A stretch of DNA of 57,002 nucleotides from Bacteroidales bacterium (GTDB lineage: Bacteria > Bacteroidota > Bacteroidia > Bacteroidales > WCHB1-69): the NCBI GenBank assembly GCA_017615795.1, contig JAFZZK010000027.1, forward strand, positions 1 to 57,002, written 5' to 3'. Below the pieces are notes generated by a model that saw only the letters and a list, made by a program, of their open reading frames with translations, was not told where the DNA came from and searched no databases. A program made the translations under genes and the position numbers. Positions 11,632-19,238 of this stretch are shown here, one piece after another. The number at the start of each line of letters is the position of its first letter. The stretch's first letter is position 1.

Positions 11632-13326
11632 ATGAAAAAAATTTTATCTATTATTGCTTTAGGACTGCTTTCTGTGACGATGTTGTCTGCGCAGTCGGAT
11701 CAATTCGTGTCCACAACCCCCTCTAACAAGAAGGTTGTTTTGGAAGAATACACGGGTATAAACTGCACGTGGTGCCCTGATGGACACAGAATGGCCAATG
11801 AACTTGCGGCCCAGCATCCGGGAGAGGTCTTTGTGATCAATGTTCACGCAGGCTCTTATGCCGCCAACACCTACACAACCCAGTTCGGTACCGCATTGGC
11901 CAATCAGACCCAACTTGACGGCTATCCCTCTGGTACGGTGAACCGCCATGTTTTCTCTGGCAGTGCAACTGCATTGAGCAGAAGTGCCTGGGCTTCGGCT
12001 GCCAACCAGATCCTAAGCATGTCATCCCCGGTCAACATTGCGGCACAGGGCACCTTGGATTGGTCCACCCGTCAACTGACCCTTACTGTTCAGCTTTACT
12101 ACACTGCCAATGAGGCTAATCCAACCAATATGCTCAATGTGGCTATTATTCAAGACAATGTCTTGGGTAATCAAGTTGGCATGAGCTTGAATCCCGATCA
12201 AGTCGTGGGCAACCAATACCGCCACATGCACATGTTGCGCCACCTCATCACGGGCCAGTGGGGCGAGGAAATCACCACCACGACCCAAGGCTCTTTTGTG
12301 GAAAAGGTGTACAACTACACCATTCCTGCCAACCTTGGCTCTCCCAATGCCATTCCGGCCCTTCTGGAAGACCTTCATTTCATCGCTTTCGTGGCCCAAG
12401 GCCATCAAGAGATCCTGACGGGTTGCGAGGCTCAGATCACCCATCTCAATATGCCGGCTATTTATCCGCGTCTTAATGCTGTGACCAACACAACAGCTTT
12501 GGACTGCTCTGACAATGCAAGTGTCAATGTCGCAGTGTTGAACTCCGGCTCCGAGAGTCTTACCTCCTTGTCTTTTGAATATATTGTTGCCAATGGAACT
12601 CCCCAAGCCTATAATTGGACGGGCGATATTCCGTCCATGCAAACTGCAACCATCGACCTGCCGGCTTTCACCGTGAGCACGAATGTGAACCAACAGGTGA
12701 AAGTCCGTATCACGTCAGCCAACGGACAGTCGTACGATGGCACGCAAATGAGCACAACCATTAAGAAAGTGTTGGCGGAAGGCAGTGGAACCATGACGAT
12801 CAAGATCAAGACAGATGGTTATGCAAGTGAGACATCTTATAAGGTTTATGGTCCTGACGGCAATGTTTTCCAATCAAGCAGCAACTTTACGAACAACACT
12901 GTGCATGAATTTCCGTTCACACCGACTCAAACGGGTTGCTATCGTATTCAGGTACTCGACTCCTACGGCGACGGCATCACCAACGGCTACTTGCGTCTAT
13001 ATGGTGCAGACGGAACACTGCTTTTCAACATCACGGGCAGCAGCTTCACCAGCGAAGCCAGCGGCATGTGCTCTGTGACTACCGTGGGTATCGATGATGT
13101 TGAAGACGAAGATATCGTTGTTTATCCTAACCCTGCATCCGACAGGGTCCAGATTTCCGGCAACGACATTCAAATGGTGGAGATTTATAACCTGCAGGGA
13201 CAAAAAGTCTCCTCTGTAGCTGGTGACGTGCACGAGGTTTCGCTCAGCGGCCTCGCCAATGGAATGTACATTTTCCGTGTCACCACGGAAAAGGGTGTCA
13301 GTTCCATCAGAGTTGCGAAAAACTAA
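11632..13326 (+). CDS. Omp28-related protein with T9SS type A sorting domain
   Basis: A 564-residue secreted protein. The signal peptide ends at SAQ (about residue 21). Residues about 33-270 resemble Omp28-related outer membrane proteins and carry a CxxC motif, NCTWCPDGH (C45, C48), in a thioredoxin-like context. The middle (about 285-380) is beta-rich. Residues about 385-480 contain a DSYGDGI segment of the kind found in beta-sandwich domains of secreted Bacteroidota proteins. Residues about 493-564 are a type A T9SS C-terminal domain, beginning VVYPNPASD and ending in a basic RVAKN tail. The protein is predicted to cross the outer membrane through T9SS and be attached to the surface or released. 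It has its own promoter and terminator, so it is probably monocistronic. Confidence 0.92.
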   Translation: MKKILSIIALGLLSVTMLSAQSDQFVSTTPSNKKVVLEEYTGINCTWCPDGHRMANELAAQHPGEVFVINVHAGSYAANTYTTQFGTALANQTQLDGYPSGTVNRHVFSGSATALSRSAWASAANQILSMSSPVNIAAQGTLDWSTRQLTLTVQLYYTANEANPTNMLNVAIIQDNVLGNQVGMSLNPDQVVGNQYRHMHMLRHLITGQWGEEITTTTQGSFVEKVYNYTIPANLGSPNAIPALLEDLHFIAFVAQGHQEILTGCEAQITHLNMPAIYPRLNAVTNTTALDCSDNASVNVAVLNSGSESLTSLSFEYIVANGTPQAYNWTGDIPSMQTATIDLPAFTVSTNVNQQVKVRITSANGQSYDGTQMSTTIKKVLAEGSGTMTIKIKTDGYASETSYKVYGPDGNVFQSSSNFTNNTVHEFPFTPTQTGCYRIQVLDSYGDGITNGYLRLYGADGTLLFNITGSSFTSEASGMCSVTTVGIDDVEDEDIVVYPNPASDRVQISGNDIQMVEIYNLQGQKVSSVAGDVHEVSLSGLANGMYIFRVTTEKGVSSIRVAKN

Positions 13327-14408: not shown

Positions 14409-16457
14409 CTACCACAGGAGTGTCACGGTTCCCGTTTTCTCGAAAAGTGTGCCGTCCGGGCGCGTGTAGTTCAACTTGTAAATGTACACGCCGGTGTGGC
14501 AGAGTTTGCCCTTTGCACGGCCGTCCCAGCCTATGTTGGGATCACGGGATATGAAAATGAGTTCCCCCGTGCGGGTGTAAATGCGTAAGTAATATTGATC
14601 CCCGGAGACAAACGTGTTGGCGGGCAGGAAAACGTTGTTATATGCTTCCAACGGCGTAAAGGCGTTGGGAATGTATGTGTTAGGCATTTGTTGCAGCGTG
14701 ACGTGGTTCGATACGCTGAGGTCGTTGAACCCATATTCATCCGGCTCGGGTTGTGCTGTCACGAAGTAGGTGAACTTTGACCCGCTCTCGAACAGGGCTG
14801 ACACGTCGTCATGGAACGTGTTGATGGATGACGGCGACAAAAATACGGGTAACTCGTTGAAAACAGGGTCGAACTCAGTGCATCTTGAGATGGTGTATTG
14901 CTGCACGTCGTTGGGACCGTCGCCGTAGTTGACCCATTGCAGGACATTCTCTTGCGCAGTGGTGGCTTCGCCTTGCAGCAGGATGTTGTGCTCCACGTTG
15001 GAGAAGCCGCCCTCCGTGTTGCAGGAATTGAGCACACAAGTGCGATAATAGTAGGTATGTTTTTTGAAATCTGCGGTTGCGTCTGTAAATGTGTAGCCAC
15101 TTTCAGGGTGATACGGCTGGGTGAGGATGGTGGTGAAGTCCGAAGCATTGTCGCTGCGTTGCAGGTATATCTCGCTGAAGGGCAGCGTGTCGCCGCTGGT
15201 GTGAACAACAACCTCAATATGATGGTTGTTGACGACCGAGACGGAACGGATGTGCGTCATGTCGGCGGAAACCGTTGATTCCAATGTGAAGTTCTTTCGA
15301 TTGCTGGAGGCTGAAATCGTATGGCCGGTGTTGTGTACGCGCACGAATGCTCTATAATCAGTGTTGAGTTGCAAGTTCGCGAGCGTGTAACTGTTGCCCG
15401 TGAGGGTTGCGACACTCTGGTAATGGGCTCCGTTGTCGGTGCTGAGGAAAACCTCGTACTCGCCGATGCCACCCTGCAAATGGGAATAGCTGCTCCAGCT
15501 GAGGGTTGCCGTCTTGTTACAGGCATCTATCTGATCAACGCGCAGGTTGATATTGCACTGCTCGTCTATGGTTATGGAAGAGCTGTTGAAACAAGAGTCG
15601 AGTACGGCAAGGCGGTAGCAGCGTTGACTGCCGTCAGGGTCGATCCAATAGGTGGTGTTGAAAATGGTGTCGATGGGCACCCATCCGTTGTTGCCTTCAT
15701 AATAGGTGATGAAACCGTACATGGCAGGATCGGGCGCGTGAAATCCAAGACCCACGCGGTTCTGCTCGTCCACCGTGACGCTGTCCAACACAGGCGGGTT
15801 GGGTTGGGTGCGGTCTACGACGTAGGCCGAGCCGATGGAGGTCGAAAAGGGACAGGTGCTGAACAGGGAGTCTCCGATCTGATATCGGTTAGAAATGCTG
15901 ACGCGATAGTAGACGTTGTTGTAGCAAACATCTGCGGCATCGGTGTATGTGGTGATGGAGTTGGGTACGGTTGCGAATGGGAGCTGTGGGAACTCGTTCT
16001 CGTAATAGTGACGTTTGAAAATCTGGAACGAATCGCCCCACGTGCCGCCCAATGTCCCTGACGATGGAGACTCCCAGTCGAGGGTCACCAACGAGCTGTC
16101 GGTGCTGACCGTGACGGTCAAGTTCGGCATTTGCAAGGTGTTGGATTGCCATGAGCCACCGGTTGAGTCGCGTGCAACAATGTAGCAGGAGTAAATTGCT
16201 GCCGGTGTGACCAGAACATCGCGACCGCTGTAGTTGCAGAGGGTGTAGGGGAGACTGGCTGTATAGGATTCACAGAAAGTCCCGTTGACGTAAAAGTCAT
16301 AGGAGATGAACTGGCTGCAATCTGCGGAATTGCTCCATGTAACATGCAAGTGTGTGGCATCGTTGAGTTGCAAGCATTGCAGTGTGGGTGGCTCAAAGCC
16401 GAGTACCGCTTGTGCCACAGCGACCAATAGCAAAACCATACATAGAACTTTCCGCAT
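14409..16457 (-). CDS. Fibronectin-type protein with T9SS type B (gliding-type) C-terminal domain
   Basis: A 682-residue secreted protein. The signal peptide ends near residue 20 (VAQAVLG). The body is a chain of roughly five or six fibronectin III-like/Ig-like beta domains, with repeated patterns such as VTLDWESPSSG, ATLSWSSYSHLQGG and NVLQWVNYGDG. Residues 593-682 are a type B sorting domain (gliding-motility-associated CTD type): YIPNAFTP, LRIYTRTGELIF, GWDGRAKG and VYIYKLNYTRPDG. The protein is therefore a probable T9SS cargo exposed at the cell surface. It is the last gene of a four-gene minus-strand run, 12 bases after the M16-like gene. No PorP/SprF partner is visible in the window. 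Confidence 0.9.
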   Translation of the reverse strand: MRKVLCMVLLLVAVAQAVLGFEPPTLQCLQLNDATHLHVTWSNSADCSQFISYDFYVNGTFCESYTASLPYTLCNYSGRDVLVTPAAIYSCYIVARDSTGGSWQSNTLQMPNLTVTVSTDSSLVTLDWESPSSGTLGGTWGDSFQIFKRHYYENEFPQLPFATVPNSITTYTDAADVCYNNVYYRVSISNRYQIGDSLFSTCPFSTSIGSAYVVDRTQPNPPVLDSVTVDEQNRVGLGFHAPDPAMYGFITYYEGNNGWVPIDTIFNTTYWIDPDGSQRCYRLAVLDSCFNSSSITIDEQCNINLRVDQIDACNKTATLSWSSYSHLQGGIGEYEVFLSTDNGAHYQSVATLTGNSYTLANLQLNTDYRAFVRVHNTGHTISASSNRKNFTLESTVSADMTHIRSVSVVNNHHIEVVVHTSGDTLPFSEIYLQRSDNASDFTTILTQPYHPESGYTFTDATADFKKHTYYYRTCVLNSCNTEGGFSNVEHNILLQGEATTAQENVLQWVNYGDGPNDVQQYTISRCTEFDPVFNELPVFLSPSSINTFHDDVSALFESGSKFTYFVTAQPEPDEYGFNDLSVSNHVTLQQMPNTYIPNAFTPLEAYNNVFLPANTFVSGDQYYLRIYTRTGELIFISRDPNIGWDGRAKGKLCHTGVYIYKLNYTRPDGTLFEKTGTVTLLW

Positions 16458-16469
16458 AATCCTTTGTTG

Positions 16470-17759
16470 TTATAAAATATTACCAACGATGATTTTGGTG
16501 AATTTATTGTATTCAAAGAATTTTTTTGATAATTCTTGAATCTGTTCCGCCGTGATGTCGTTAACGTGTCGGAGCATGGTCTGGAATTCTTTTTCGTCGA
16601 GTCCGCGGGCGTGCCAATGTGCAATTTTTCTCATGTAAGATACCGAGTTCTCCACATCGCGAAGAAGGCTCCCTTCGATATGTCGTCGCACTAGGCTGAG
16701 TTCCTCTTCACCGACGGGCTCCTGGCAGAGTATCGCCATCTCCTCGAAGCAGGCGTCGACGGCTGCGCGGGTGTCTTGGGCATTCACGTCGCTGCTGATG
16801 GAGAAGAGCGACTGGTTGCCGAAGAAGGTGAGGTCTGCGTATGCGCCGTAGGTGTAGCCCTCTTTTTCGCGAAGCCGCTGCATGAGGCGGGACCCGAAAT
16901 ATCCTCCGGTGAGCGTGGACAGGATGGTCAAGTCACGGCGGCTTGGATCTGCGAAACCGATGGCAGGGCGGCAGATCATGATGGAGGATTGTATGCTGTC
17001 GTGCCGCTCTTCCTGAATGAGGGGCTTGCTCTCCTTGAAAAGGGCGAGGTCGTGAATGCGAGGTGCGGGCGTGCCATGAGGCGTTTGACTGAACAGTTCG
17101 TCGATGCAGCGCTCCAAGGTGCCGTCGAAATTGCCTGTGGCATAGATGCGCATGTTCTCCGCGCAGAATGTGGCGCGGTGGCACGCCTCCATCTGCTCAA
17201 TGGTCACCGCCCGCATGGTCTCAGGGGTCGAAAACCGTCCCGCAGCTAAGGCGTCTCCAAAAAGTGCATGCAAGGCTAATTGCGAGCAACGTACGTCCAT
17301 CTTTTGGGAAGAGTATTCTAAATCCTTGATTTTTCGTTCTTTGTATAACTCAAGGTTCTCTTCTCGATAGGTGGGGGACGAAATAAACTCGAAGATGGCC
17401 GGCAGAATGTGCGGCACAGTCTTTTTGGGAATGGTTATCTTGAGCTGGATTCTGTCGAGGGTGACCGAAACGCCGTAGGTGGCCCCGTGAAAGTCGAGCA
17501 GCCCGTCCATCTCGGCGGCTGTGTGGCGGGGAGAGCTTTCCTTGAGCAGGAAATAGGCGAAGCGTAGAGCGTGCTTGACAGTCTCATGCAACGACCCCAC
17601 CGAGAGCTCAATGTTCAGATGGATGAGGTCGAGGGTGGGGTTGTCGATGATGAAAACAGGTATCCCGTTGGGCAGGTTATGGCGTTGGGGAGGGACGAGG
17701 CTTATGTTCGTGACAGGATGCCGTTCGGGAGCAATGCTTCTGTCTAAGTGTGTTGTCAT
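16470..17759 (-). CDS. M16 (insulinase/pitrilysin)-family protein lacking the zinc motif
   Basis: A 429-residue protein with the two-domain M16 fold: an N-terminal half beginning RHNLPNGIPVFIIDNP and a C-terminal half containing GGYFGSRLMQRLREKEGYTYGAYA, the conserved arginine/tyrosine segment of the family. The zinc site HxxEH, normally in a GLAHFLEHMLFKGT-type stretch, is absent; the matching region reads HALRFAYFLLKESSP. It is therefore predicted to be catalytically inactive. Single inactive M16 chains are known to pair with an active chain, but none is in the window. There is no signal peptide, so it is probably cytoplasmic. It lies 6 bases after the type-B-domain membrane protein and 12 bases before the fibronectin-type cargo gene. 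Confidence 0.85.
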   Translation of the reverse strand: MTTHLDRSIAPERHPVTNISLVPPQRHNLPNGIPVFIIDNPTLDLIHLNIELSVGSLHETVKHALRFAYFLLKESSPRHTAAEMDGLLDFHGATYGVSVTLDRIQLKITIPKKTVPHILPAIFEFISSPTYREENLELYKERKIKDLEYSSQKMDVRCSQLALHALFGDALAAGRFSTPETMRAVTIEQMEACHRATFCAENMRIYATGNFDGTLERCIDELFSQTPHGTPAPRIHDLALFKESKPLIQEERHDSIQSSIMICRPAIGFADPSRRDLTILSTLTGGYFGSRLMQRLREKEGYTYGAYADLTFFGNQSLFSISSDVNAQDTRAAVDACFEEMAILCQEPVGEEELSLVRRHIEGSLLRDVENSVSYMRKIAHWHARGLDEKEFQTMLRHVNDITAEQIQELSKKFFEYNKFTKIIVGNIL

Positions 17760-17765
17760 GTTATT

Positions 17766-18632
17766 TTACCGGATGAGCATTACTTGACCGCGCCGGTTCA
17801 GCAACTTGCCGTCCGGGTCGGTGTATTTGATGATGTAGGTGTATATTTCACCGGCGAGTTCCTTCCCTTGCGAGGTTCCGTCCCAGCCGGCCTCGAGATC
17901 GCGTGTGTGGAAAACCATCTCCCCGCGGCGGTTGTAGACGGCCATTTCGTAGGTCTTCGGCTCAAAATTGGCCGTGATGTATAATTTGTCATTCAGACCG
18001 TCATGGTTTGGAGTGAAAGCGTTGGGTACAAAGAAGACAAACTCTGATTCGCTGACGGGTTCCTCAGGCTCGACTTCCTGACTCTTCTGCTCGTCAAGGG
18101 TGATTTCGGGAGTTGATGGGGTGGGGGTGTCGCCAAAGCTCTCCGTCTGTTTGGCAGAAGGTGCAGGTTTTAAGTCCACGACAGCGGGGATGGTGACATT
18201 CGGGTTTTGCTGCAACTCGTTTGTAGACTTGGATTTTGGGCTTTGTGTTTCGGCGTCCGCAGGTGCACTGACAGTGCGGGGCGATTCAGGTTCGCCAAAG
18301 AAGGATGTGGTGGATGAGGGAATGTCGGGGGTGCTTGTGGTGGACGGCGTGAGGGTCTTTGTTGTTGGGGCCGGGGTTGCGGCGGGCGCGGGTGCGGCTT
18401 GCGGGGTGGGAGTGGGGACTTCCGACGCAGGCGTTTCGGCATGGCGCATGCCCAGGGTTAGCGCAGTGACGAGGGCGGCGGTAACCACGGCGGCGGGGAT
18501 GCCGTAACCGCAGATACGGCGTAGGGCTCTTCCCCGATTGTATTTCACCAACGCGGGGTCTTGGGAGATGGCTTCCCATCCGGACTCGTCCACCGGTTGA
18601 GTGTATTTCTCGAATTGGTCTTTCAGCTTCAT
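17766..18632 (-). CDS. Putative anti-sigma-like membrane protein with periplasmic T9SS type B domain
   Basis: A 288-residue protein in three parts. Residues 1-39 are a short cytoplasmic segment with the pattern FEKYTQPVDESGWEAI, like the N-termini of Bacteroidota membrane proteins encoded beside ECF sigma factors. Residues about 41-61 are one transmembrane helix, with basic RALRR before it. Residues about 65-199 are a linker rich in P, T, A and S. Residues 200-288 are a complete type B (gliding-type) CTD: VPNAFTPNHDGLND, MAVYNRRGEMVF, GWDGTSQG and YTYIIKYTDPDG. It follows the sigma gene by 48 bases. Fusing an inner-membrane anchor to a T9SS sorting domain is odd, because such domains normally ride on exported cargo. 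The anti-sigma role is inferred from position and topology. The start is the ATG at 18632; a TTG 11 codons upstream is in frame. Confidence 0.8.
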   Translation of the reverse strand: MKLKDQFEKYTQPVDESGWEAISQDPALVKYNRGRALRRICGYGIPAAVVTAALVTALTLGMRHAETPASEVPTPTPQAAPAPAATPAPTTKTLTPSTTSTPDIPSSTTSFFGEPESPRTVSAPADAETQSPKSKSTNELQQNPNVTIPAVVDLKPAPSAKQTESFGDTPTPSTPEITLDEQKSQEVEPEEPVSESEFVFFVPNAFTPNHDGLNDKLYITANFEPKTYEMAVYNRRGEMVFHTRDLEAGWDGTSQGKELAGEIYTYIIKYTDPDGKLLNRRGQVMLIR

Positions 18633-18680
18633 GTCTTTGTCGTTATGATCGTGTCGTTGTTTCAAGATTCAGTTTCTATC

Positions 18681-19238
18681 CTACAATTCAAACTCCTCAT
18701 GGTTGAGGTATCCCCGTATGCGTTCCCGCAGACGGTTCTTGGCGCGGAAAACCAGTGTCCGCACGTTGGTGCCGCTCTCCTCCAGAATATCCTCCATCTC
18801 CTTTTGCGAGTACCCGTCGATATAGAACAAGTTGAACGCCAAACGCTGTCGGTCTGGCAGCTCGTTGATGAACGTCACCAGTTGCTCCATGGACAGTATT
18901 TCCGGCACGGGAGACGAAAGGCTGGGACTGGGGTAATCCTCGTCTTCAACTGCTTGCGTCTTTTGTCGTGAACGCTTGCGGCAGTAATCCAACGCTTTGT
19001 TCACCGTGATCTGGTATATCCATCCGCCGAGCGAGGTGATGTTCGTGTAGTCTTTGAAGTGGGTGAGGATGAAGACAAAGGTGTCATGGAACAGATCTTC
19101 GGCCTCGTCCGCATTGGGGGCATAGCGCCGGCAGATGCCTTTGACCATCGGACCATATTCAAGGTACAACTGCTTCTGGCACGCGCTGTTGCCCCGGATA
19201 CATCCATCTATCAGCTTTTGTTCTTCTTTTGTCACCAT
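18681..19238 (-). CDS. ECF-family RNA polymerase sigma factor
   Basis: A 185-residue sigma-70 family factor of the extracytoplasmic-function type. Region 2 runs from about residue 20 to 90 (EAEDLFHDTFVFILTHF, then GGWIYQITVNKALDYCRK). Region 4 runs from about 115 to 180 (LPDRQRLAFNLFYIDGYSQKEMEDIL, then VRTLVFRAKNRLRERI). It would direct RNA polymerase to a specific set of promoters. It heads the four-gene run ending at 14409. Its downstream neighbour, a one-helix membrane protein, is the likely partner. I find no TAnnTTTG element in the 89 bases between it and the divergent glycosylase gene, so it may be self-regulated. Kinship to P. gingivalis SigP is possible but not shown. Confidence 0.93.
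   Translation of the reverse strand: MVTKEEQKLIDGCIRGNSACQKQLYLEYGPMVKGICRRYAPNADEAEDLFHDTFVFILTHFKDYTNITSLGGWIYQITVNKALDYCRKRSRQKTQAVEDEDYPSPSLSSPVPEILSMEQLVTFINELPDRQRLAFNLFYIDGYSQKEMEDILEESGTNVRTLVFRAKNRLRERIRGYLNHEEFEL

Follow-up and report, generated by a model that had tools for sequence, protein, structure and literature searches.

Why should a protein bearing the sorting domain of the type IX secretion system (T9SS) be held in the inner membrane, beside the gene for a sigma factor? The question is raised by a four-gene operon in a 57,002-nucleotide stretch of DNA (hereafter, the window) from a Bacteroidales bacterium, assembly GCA_017615795.1. An initial annotation had read the operon as coding for an extracytoplasmic function (ECF) sigma factor; a protein with one helix and, at its end, a complete T9SS sorting domain of type B; an M16-fold protein without the HxxEH zinc motif; and a secreted fibronectin-type protein with the same kind of sorting domain. 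It further proposed that the anchored domain could serve as bait reporting whether the secretion machinery is free or blocked, and in this way control the sigma factor. We find that an inner-membrane protein with a T9SS C-terminal sorting domain (CTD) beside an ECF sigma gene is real and recurrent, and the sequences make an anti-sigma arrangement the most likely one. The protein is probably a trans-envelope anti-sigma factor resembling the Dma proteins, with a type B signal in place of their β-barrel and an outer anchor supplied in trans.

Architecture of the CTD-bearing protein

The second gene of the operon encodes 288 residues, counted from its ATG; with the in-frame TTG at 18665 as start, it would encode 299. 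The product comprises a short segment presumed to bind the sigma factor, one helix, a long tether and a terminal type B CTD (Table 1). The one-helix protein with a complete sorting domain described initially is thus confirmed: the CHU_C match covers residues 202-272 and exceeds its cut-off, and TIGR04131, for which the cut-off is 35 bits, scores 51.1. No β-barrel model matched the protein in a Pfam scan. By hydropathy, it has no N-terminal stretch resembling a signal peptide; its sole hydrophobic stretch, residues 40-58, follows a charged segment.

For the genus, 22 loci were taken among the matches listed, all with a CTD-bearing frame no longer than ~500 residues; very short frames were excluded. 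Lysine and arginine average 5.2 in the 15 residues before the helix of the genus proteins versus 1.3 after it. A charge bias predicting a cytoplasmic N-terminus is found in 21 of 22 genus proteins, as well as in 98 of 113 partners of related sigmas that lack a CTD (see below). The tether of the window protein contains 17% P, 16% T, 12% S, 11% E and 10% A, has no W, Y or C, and is predicted from this composition to be disordered. Linkers measure 122-155 residues (median 143) in the 22 genus proteins, which have at most one residue after the CTD; in 34 CTD-type proteins from outside the genus they span 49-391 residues, with at most five residues after the domain. The median number of residues following the CTD is 0-1. 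In an alignment, the CTD positions conserved among CTD-type partners are retained. Further, the window CTD and that of a second anti-sigma-like protein in the same genome rank 5 and 6 among the genome's 16 type B hits.

Partners of related sigma factors

Searched against the whole phylum, a profile of nine CTD-type proteins returned 30 loci, among which a sigma open reading frame (ORF) was present only at the second pair of the window's own genome, on contig 27. The remaining loci look like ordinary cargo. Because nearly all of the loci were of this kind, later surveys went through the sigma gene. In the order-level survey, the sigma genes of 247 genomes of the order were ranked by similarity to the window sigma, and 66 loci were taken: 26 from outside the genus and the next 40 listed rows, skipping that of contig 27. 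The gene behind the sigma ends in a type B CTD at 13 of these loci, lacks a CTD at 42 and is cut by a sequence edge at eight; two loci have no sigma ORF and one has no partner. Forty of the 42 non-CTD partners have a helix at the expected place, and the other two loci (L190 and L213) have other genes there. Indeed, the partners directly downstream of homologous sigmas in Bacteroidia mostly place their helix within residues 40-75, whether they end in a CTD or have none.

Two further sets gave similar classes of partner. A class-level set (n=29) comprised six CTD partners, nine without a CTD, 13 cut and one locus with no sigma ORF; among 80 named loci the numbers were 17 with a CTD, 53 without, three cut, five with no partner and two with no sigma ORF. 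The rates in both sets lean toward the CTD form because their sigma profiles were built solely from CTD-paired sigmas, and counts from the survey sets are not additive because the sets overlap (one protein is shared by L104 and L227, and L162 and L202 are a single place). The background for the order-level figure is low: the 24 non-genus genomes of the order carry ~8 type B genes each (189 hits), or ~0.3% of genes at an estimated ~3,000 genes per genome, versus 13 of 66 behind related sigmas.

CTDs were called with a profile grown from those of the window's own genome (E<1e-3); the CTDs of L100 and L104 are partial, and that of L263 is without the usual PN motif. Ten CTD partners, nine of them from other families and the tenth from contig 27, were scanned independently with Pfam; CHU_C exceeded its cut-off in all ten and a barrel model matched in none. 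Ten non-CTD partners, on which the barrel assignment of that class rests, all matched OMP_b-brl at E<=0.01, seven of them above the curated cut-off. Two cultured carriers of the pair are Fluviicola chungangensis MAH-3 (locus L230) and Crocinitomix catalasitica ATCC 23190 (locus L238).

The CTD state was mapped on trees of the sigma factors. After removal of 22 edge-cut or duplicate rows, a FastTree phylogeny of 135 sigmas needs 12 changes of state, versus a mean of 36.6 on shuffled labels. An IQ-TREE analysis of 83 rows (all 43 CTD rows and 40 of the 92 barrel-type rows, drawn at random) needs nine. We claim neither a repeated origin of the CTD form nor repeated exchange of tails, because a single CTD clade is not rejected by the approximately unbiased (AU) test (p 0.162). 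The recurrent pair itself suggests that a barrel and a CTD can stand in for each other as the outer-membrane module of a common anti-sigma chassis.

Some minor features of the CTD-type pairs were also seen. A PKD domain lies between tether and CTD in L099, L151, L164 and L238. At the Crocinitomicaceae-like loci L217, L221, L222, L228, L230 and L253, the pair occurs in similar neighbourhoods; genes named by sequence reading as RpiB-like, glutamyl-tRNA synthetase-like, FolB-like and a large membrane protein recur there, though not at every locus.

A shared N-terminal segment

The main evidence for one anti-sigma chassis is, from the sequences, an N-terminal segment common to CTD-type and barrel-type partners. 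A profile was built from up to 50 residues before the helix of the 113 partners in which no CTD was detected, those cut by an edge among them. At E<1e-3 it matched 33 of the 34 CTD-type proteins outside the genus and 112 of its own 113, versus four of 702 other ORFs at the same loci. Conversely, a profile of the 34 CTD-type proteins reached 86 of the 113 non-CTD partners and three of the 702 other ORFs. Profile-profile comparison with hhalign gave a probability of 98.9% for CTD-type against non-CTD segments, 85.6% for genus against non-CTD and 89.4% for genus against CTD-type. The control of the sigma factor proposed in the initial annotation thus gains support from the N-terminal match outside the genus, and less of it within, while the membrane-anchored sorting domain beside the sigma gene stands as described.

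A conserved promoter-like element

A promoter-like element of the ECF type precedes the sigma gene (Table 1). Of 21 regions upstream of the sigma gene in the genus, the window's included, 15 contain its general form, TGYAAY-N15..17-CGTC, where mononucleotide shuffling gives an expectation of 0.03. Elsewhere it is present at four of 34 CTD-type loci (0.02 expected) and one of 112 non-CTD loci (0.16 expected). At L071, the element falls within the sigma frame, the start of which was placed too far upstream. The conservation of this putative promoter suggests autoregulation. In Flavobacterium psychrophilum, an ECF/anti-sigma pair and T9SS genes are reported to have a common CGT-box promoter class (PMC9723704).

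A putative trans-envelope anti-sigma factor

The closest known arrangement is that of the Dma proteins, which have an N-terminal sigma-binding domain, a helix, a disordered tether and a C-terminal barrel, and lie beside an ECF21 sigma (PMC13088901). Like the Dma/Das-ECF21 systems of Bacteroides thetaiotaomicron, the window pair combines an N-terminal segment, a helix, a long tether and a C-terminal module addressed to the outer membrane with an adjoining ECF sigma gene. Unlike Dma, it has a T9SS type B CTD where Dma has a β-barrel, and its N-terminal segment has diverged. The likeness is one of architecture, the N-terminal profiles having come from survey partners. The window sigma, for its part, adjoins its partner and is related to the sigmas found beside barrel-type partners. 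We do not class the window protein as a Dma member, because the defining feature of that group, the barrel, is absent.

We infer that ~39 cytoplasmic residues of this inner-membrane protein hold the ECF sigma, and that the disordered tether of ~140 residues, which leads to the type B signal, can cross the periplasm. The outer anchor would then be found in trans, with the T9SS translocon or a PorP/SprF-like barrel as the docking site of the CTD; type B CTD proteins are reported to bind PorP-like barrels (PMC9143113). Either an event at the outer membrane or a shift in T9SS engagement would alter the anti-sigma-like protein and free the sigma, which could then transcribe its own operon through the TGYAAY-N16-CGTC element; the engaged state could be either the silent or the active one. 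The comparison with barrel-ended partners suggests that the property common to the tails is that of reaching the outer membrane. A dependence of a Dma-like anti-sigma factor on the T9SS would be new, and a recurrent sigma/anti-sigma module ending in a T9SS address tag would offer a direct and testable link between secretion and transcription. No description of an anti-sigma factor with a terminal T9SS CTD was found in the titles and abstract openings of those open-licence PMC papers, preprints excluded, that the searches listed.

Other known systems share only parts of this design. As in the PorA-PorXY-SigP pathway of Porphyromonas gingivalis, in which SigP, an ECF sigma that controls T9SS genes, is under the influence of a T9SS CTD protein (PMC7712824), secretion and sigma activity may be coupled. 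However, PorA has a signal peptide, resides at the cell surface and acts via a two-component system, whereas here the CTD is within the presumed anti-sigma factor itself. The type B substrates of the pairs SprB-SprF and PG1035-PorP carry the same family of C-terminal domain, but they are surface proteins with Sec signal peptides; the window protein has an inner-membrane anchor, and its operon has no PorP/SprF gene.

Several observations weigh against an anti-sigma factor of this kind. Support from the shared N-terminus is weaker in the window's own genus, as the segment has diverged: the non-CTD profile reaches three of the 22 genus proteins at E<1e-3 and six below 0.05, and the CTD-type profile only one and three, respectively. 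Because this reverse profile is even weaker for the genus, our confidence is slightly lowered. Outside the genus, the charge bias is present in just 16 of the 34 CTD-type proteins, with six ties and 12 opposite, and two CTD partners (L210 and L253) have no helix by a simple hydropathy rule and stand outside the profile counts. The exact promoter pattern has five hits in the window's own genome (87% complete) versus seven for a reversed control. Four of the five are inside open frames, that of sprA among them, and a regulon prediction from this pattern was dropped. No wider regulon is seen, since the only exact hit outside open frames precedes the operon itself. The three PorP/SprF-like genes of the genome lie elsewhere than in the operon. 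Finally, SprA is present in 15 of 15 tested genomes with a CTD-type partner, but this says little because it is also present in 13 of 15 comparison genomes.

Alternative explanations

What the CTD does at its far end admits of more than one account. As the initial annotation proposed, it could act as bait, occupying a T9SS entry site only when the machine is free and so reporting secretion load to a sigma that adjusts envelope genes. An intact CTD on a ~140-residue tether would fit such a device, as would the reports that type A substrate CTDs sit inside the SprA pore during transport (PMC10994853) and that PorA influences the SigP pathway. Yet a T9SS signal is missing from the barrel-ended partners with the same N-terminal segment, so that the general state of the outer membrane may be the input, and the exact promoter pattern finds no site before any T9SS gene of the genome. 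We regard the bait model as a credible minority view. A bolder version, in which the translocon or a PorP-like shuttle grips the CTD and the pull of the proton-driven motor (or its failure) frees the sigma, is more doubtful still. If true, it would define a class of anti-sigma factors in Bacteroidia that use the T9SS as a sensor and give a read-out of secretion activity.

Another possibility is that the CTD has become a mere periplasmic immunoglobulin-like (Ig-like) sensor of the anti-sigma factor and no longer meets the T9SS. The PKD domains in four of the ten scanned CTD-type partners recall ligand-binding periplasmic domains and would fit this idea. The CTD, however, stands at the extreme C-terminus in the genus and beyond, and it keeps the positions conserved among these proteins. 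Moreover, secretion in F. johnsoniae is reported to need all five conserved motifs of a type B CTD (PMC12618676). We consider such a repurposed domain unlikely. Least probable is that the protein is a surface cargo of the usual kind whose signal anchor stays uncleaved, and that it merely lies beside the sigma gene. Its CTD does belong to a bona fide secretion-signal family, and the N-terminal segment of the genus matches anti-sigma profiles weakly; but a signal peptide-like stretch is missing from the N-terminus, the same position behind related sigmas is occupied in other families, and the N-terminal segment is shared with barrel-type partners outside the genus. The Dma-like anti-sigma factor with its outer anchor in trans remains our preferred reading.

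Conservation of the operon within the genus

All four genes are present at 19 of the 22 same-genus loci. Because these loci were chosen for having the CTD, they show gene surroundings and not frequency among genomes. The sigma was recognized by ORF profile at 18 of the 19 and by tblastn at L072; the cargo gene of L050, L054, L063 and L068 is cut by the locus end before its CTD and was recognized by similarity to the window cargo. Of the other three loci, L075 (genome G024) has the sigma and CTD pair alone and resembles the contig-27 pair of the window's genome, and L080 and L083 encode ordinary-looking CTD proteins without a helix and without a sigma. Of 40 genus genomes, 37 have a single copy of the M16 gene; these include all 23 that are >=90% complete and <=5% contaminated.

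The contig-27 locus (L009:4005-5514) holds a second ECF sigma gene with a helix-tether-CTD partner, without M16 or cargo. A gene read from its sequence as mutS-like follows this pair on the opposite strand.

Beyond the 22 loci, an M16 gene is near only one of 175 others scanned (L214), which is of the same genus; M16 and cargo therefore look like genus-level additions to the sigma/partner pair, which itself looks like the core of the operon. At least 1,400 bases downstream were available for 90 of 147 classified partners, 19 of the 34 CTD-type ones among them, and the absence of M16 beyond the genus rests on these loci because many others are too short. A four-gene unit, with the M16 and cargo genes travelling with the pair, is thus supported within the genus and not supported beyond it.

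Gene layout and neighbouring genes

The four genes run consecutively on the minus strand from 19238 down to 14409, and the ORFs and Pfam matches bear out both the order and the intergenic gaps of 48, 6 and 12 bases given in the initial annotation.

Table 1. Coordinates of the operon, the parts of its membrane protein and the upstream element
Feature	Position in window	Strand	Evidence
ECF-type promoter-like element TGCAAC-N16-CGTC, 20 bases before sigma start codon	19259..19284	-	
ECF sigma factor, 185 aa	18681..19238	-	Pfam Sigma70_r2 7.6e-16, Sigma70_r4_2 1.4e-11; TIGR02937 1.2e-24
Anti-sigma-like membrane protein, 288 aa (cytoplasmic segment, one helix, tether, type B CTD)	17766..18632	-	
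Residues 1-39, presumed sigma-binding segment, FExYxxPVxExGWExI	18516..18632	-	alignment; hhalign profile comparison
Residues 40-58, predicted transmembrane helix, N-in by positive charges	18459..18515	-	hydropathy
Residues 59-198, Pro/Thr/Ser/Glu/Ala-rich tether, 140 residues	18039..18458	-	composition
Residues 199-288, T9SS type B sorting domain at C-terminal end	17769..18038	-	PF13585 3.1e-17, TIGR04131
M16-fold pseudo-peptidase, 429 aa	16470..17759	-	Peptidase_M16_C PF05193 8e-27; no N-terminal helix, no HxxEH
Secreted type B cargo with fn3-type domain, 682 aa	14409..16457	-	fn3 5.9e-8, CHU_C 3.6e-7

The absence of HxxEH from the M16-fold protein, noted at the outset, extends to all 19 orthologues, none of which has an N-terminal hydrophobic helix. 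The N-terminal M16 domain of the window protein scores under the Pfam cut-off. Among NCBIfam models its best match is to the YfmF-like M16 proteins, yet at 56 bits versus a cut-off of 285. An M16 peptidase that does carry HxxEH (at residue 48), likewise without an N-terminal helix, is encoded on contig 45 of the same genome (L296:1462-2718); it could be an active partner of the operon's inactive M16 protein.

The fourth gene agrees with its first description as a secreted fibronectin-type protein with a sorting domain. Its product has a hydrophobic segment at residues 4-22, and its CTD is above the Pfam cut-off and below that of NCBIfam. Farther along the window, at 11632-13326, lies a gene for an Omp28-like protein with a type A sorting domain, which places both CTD types within 8 kb of each other.

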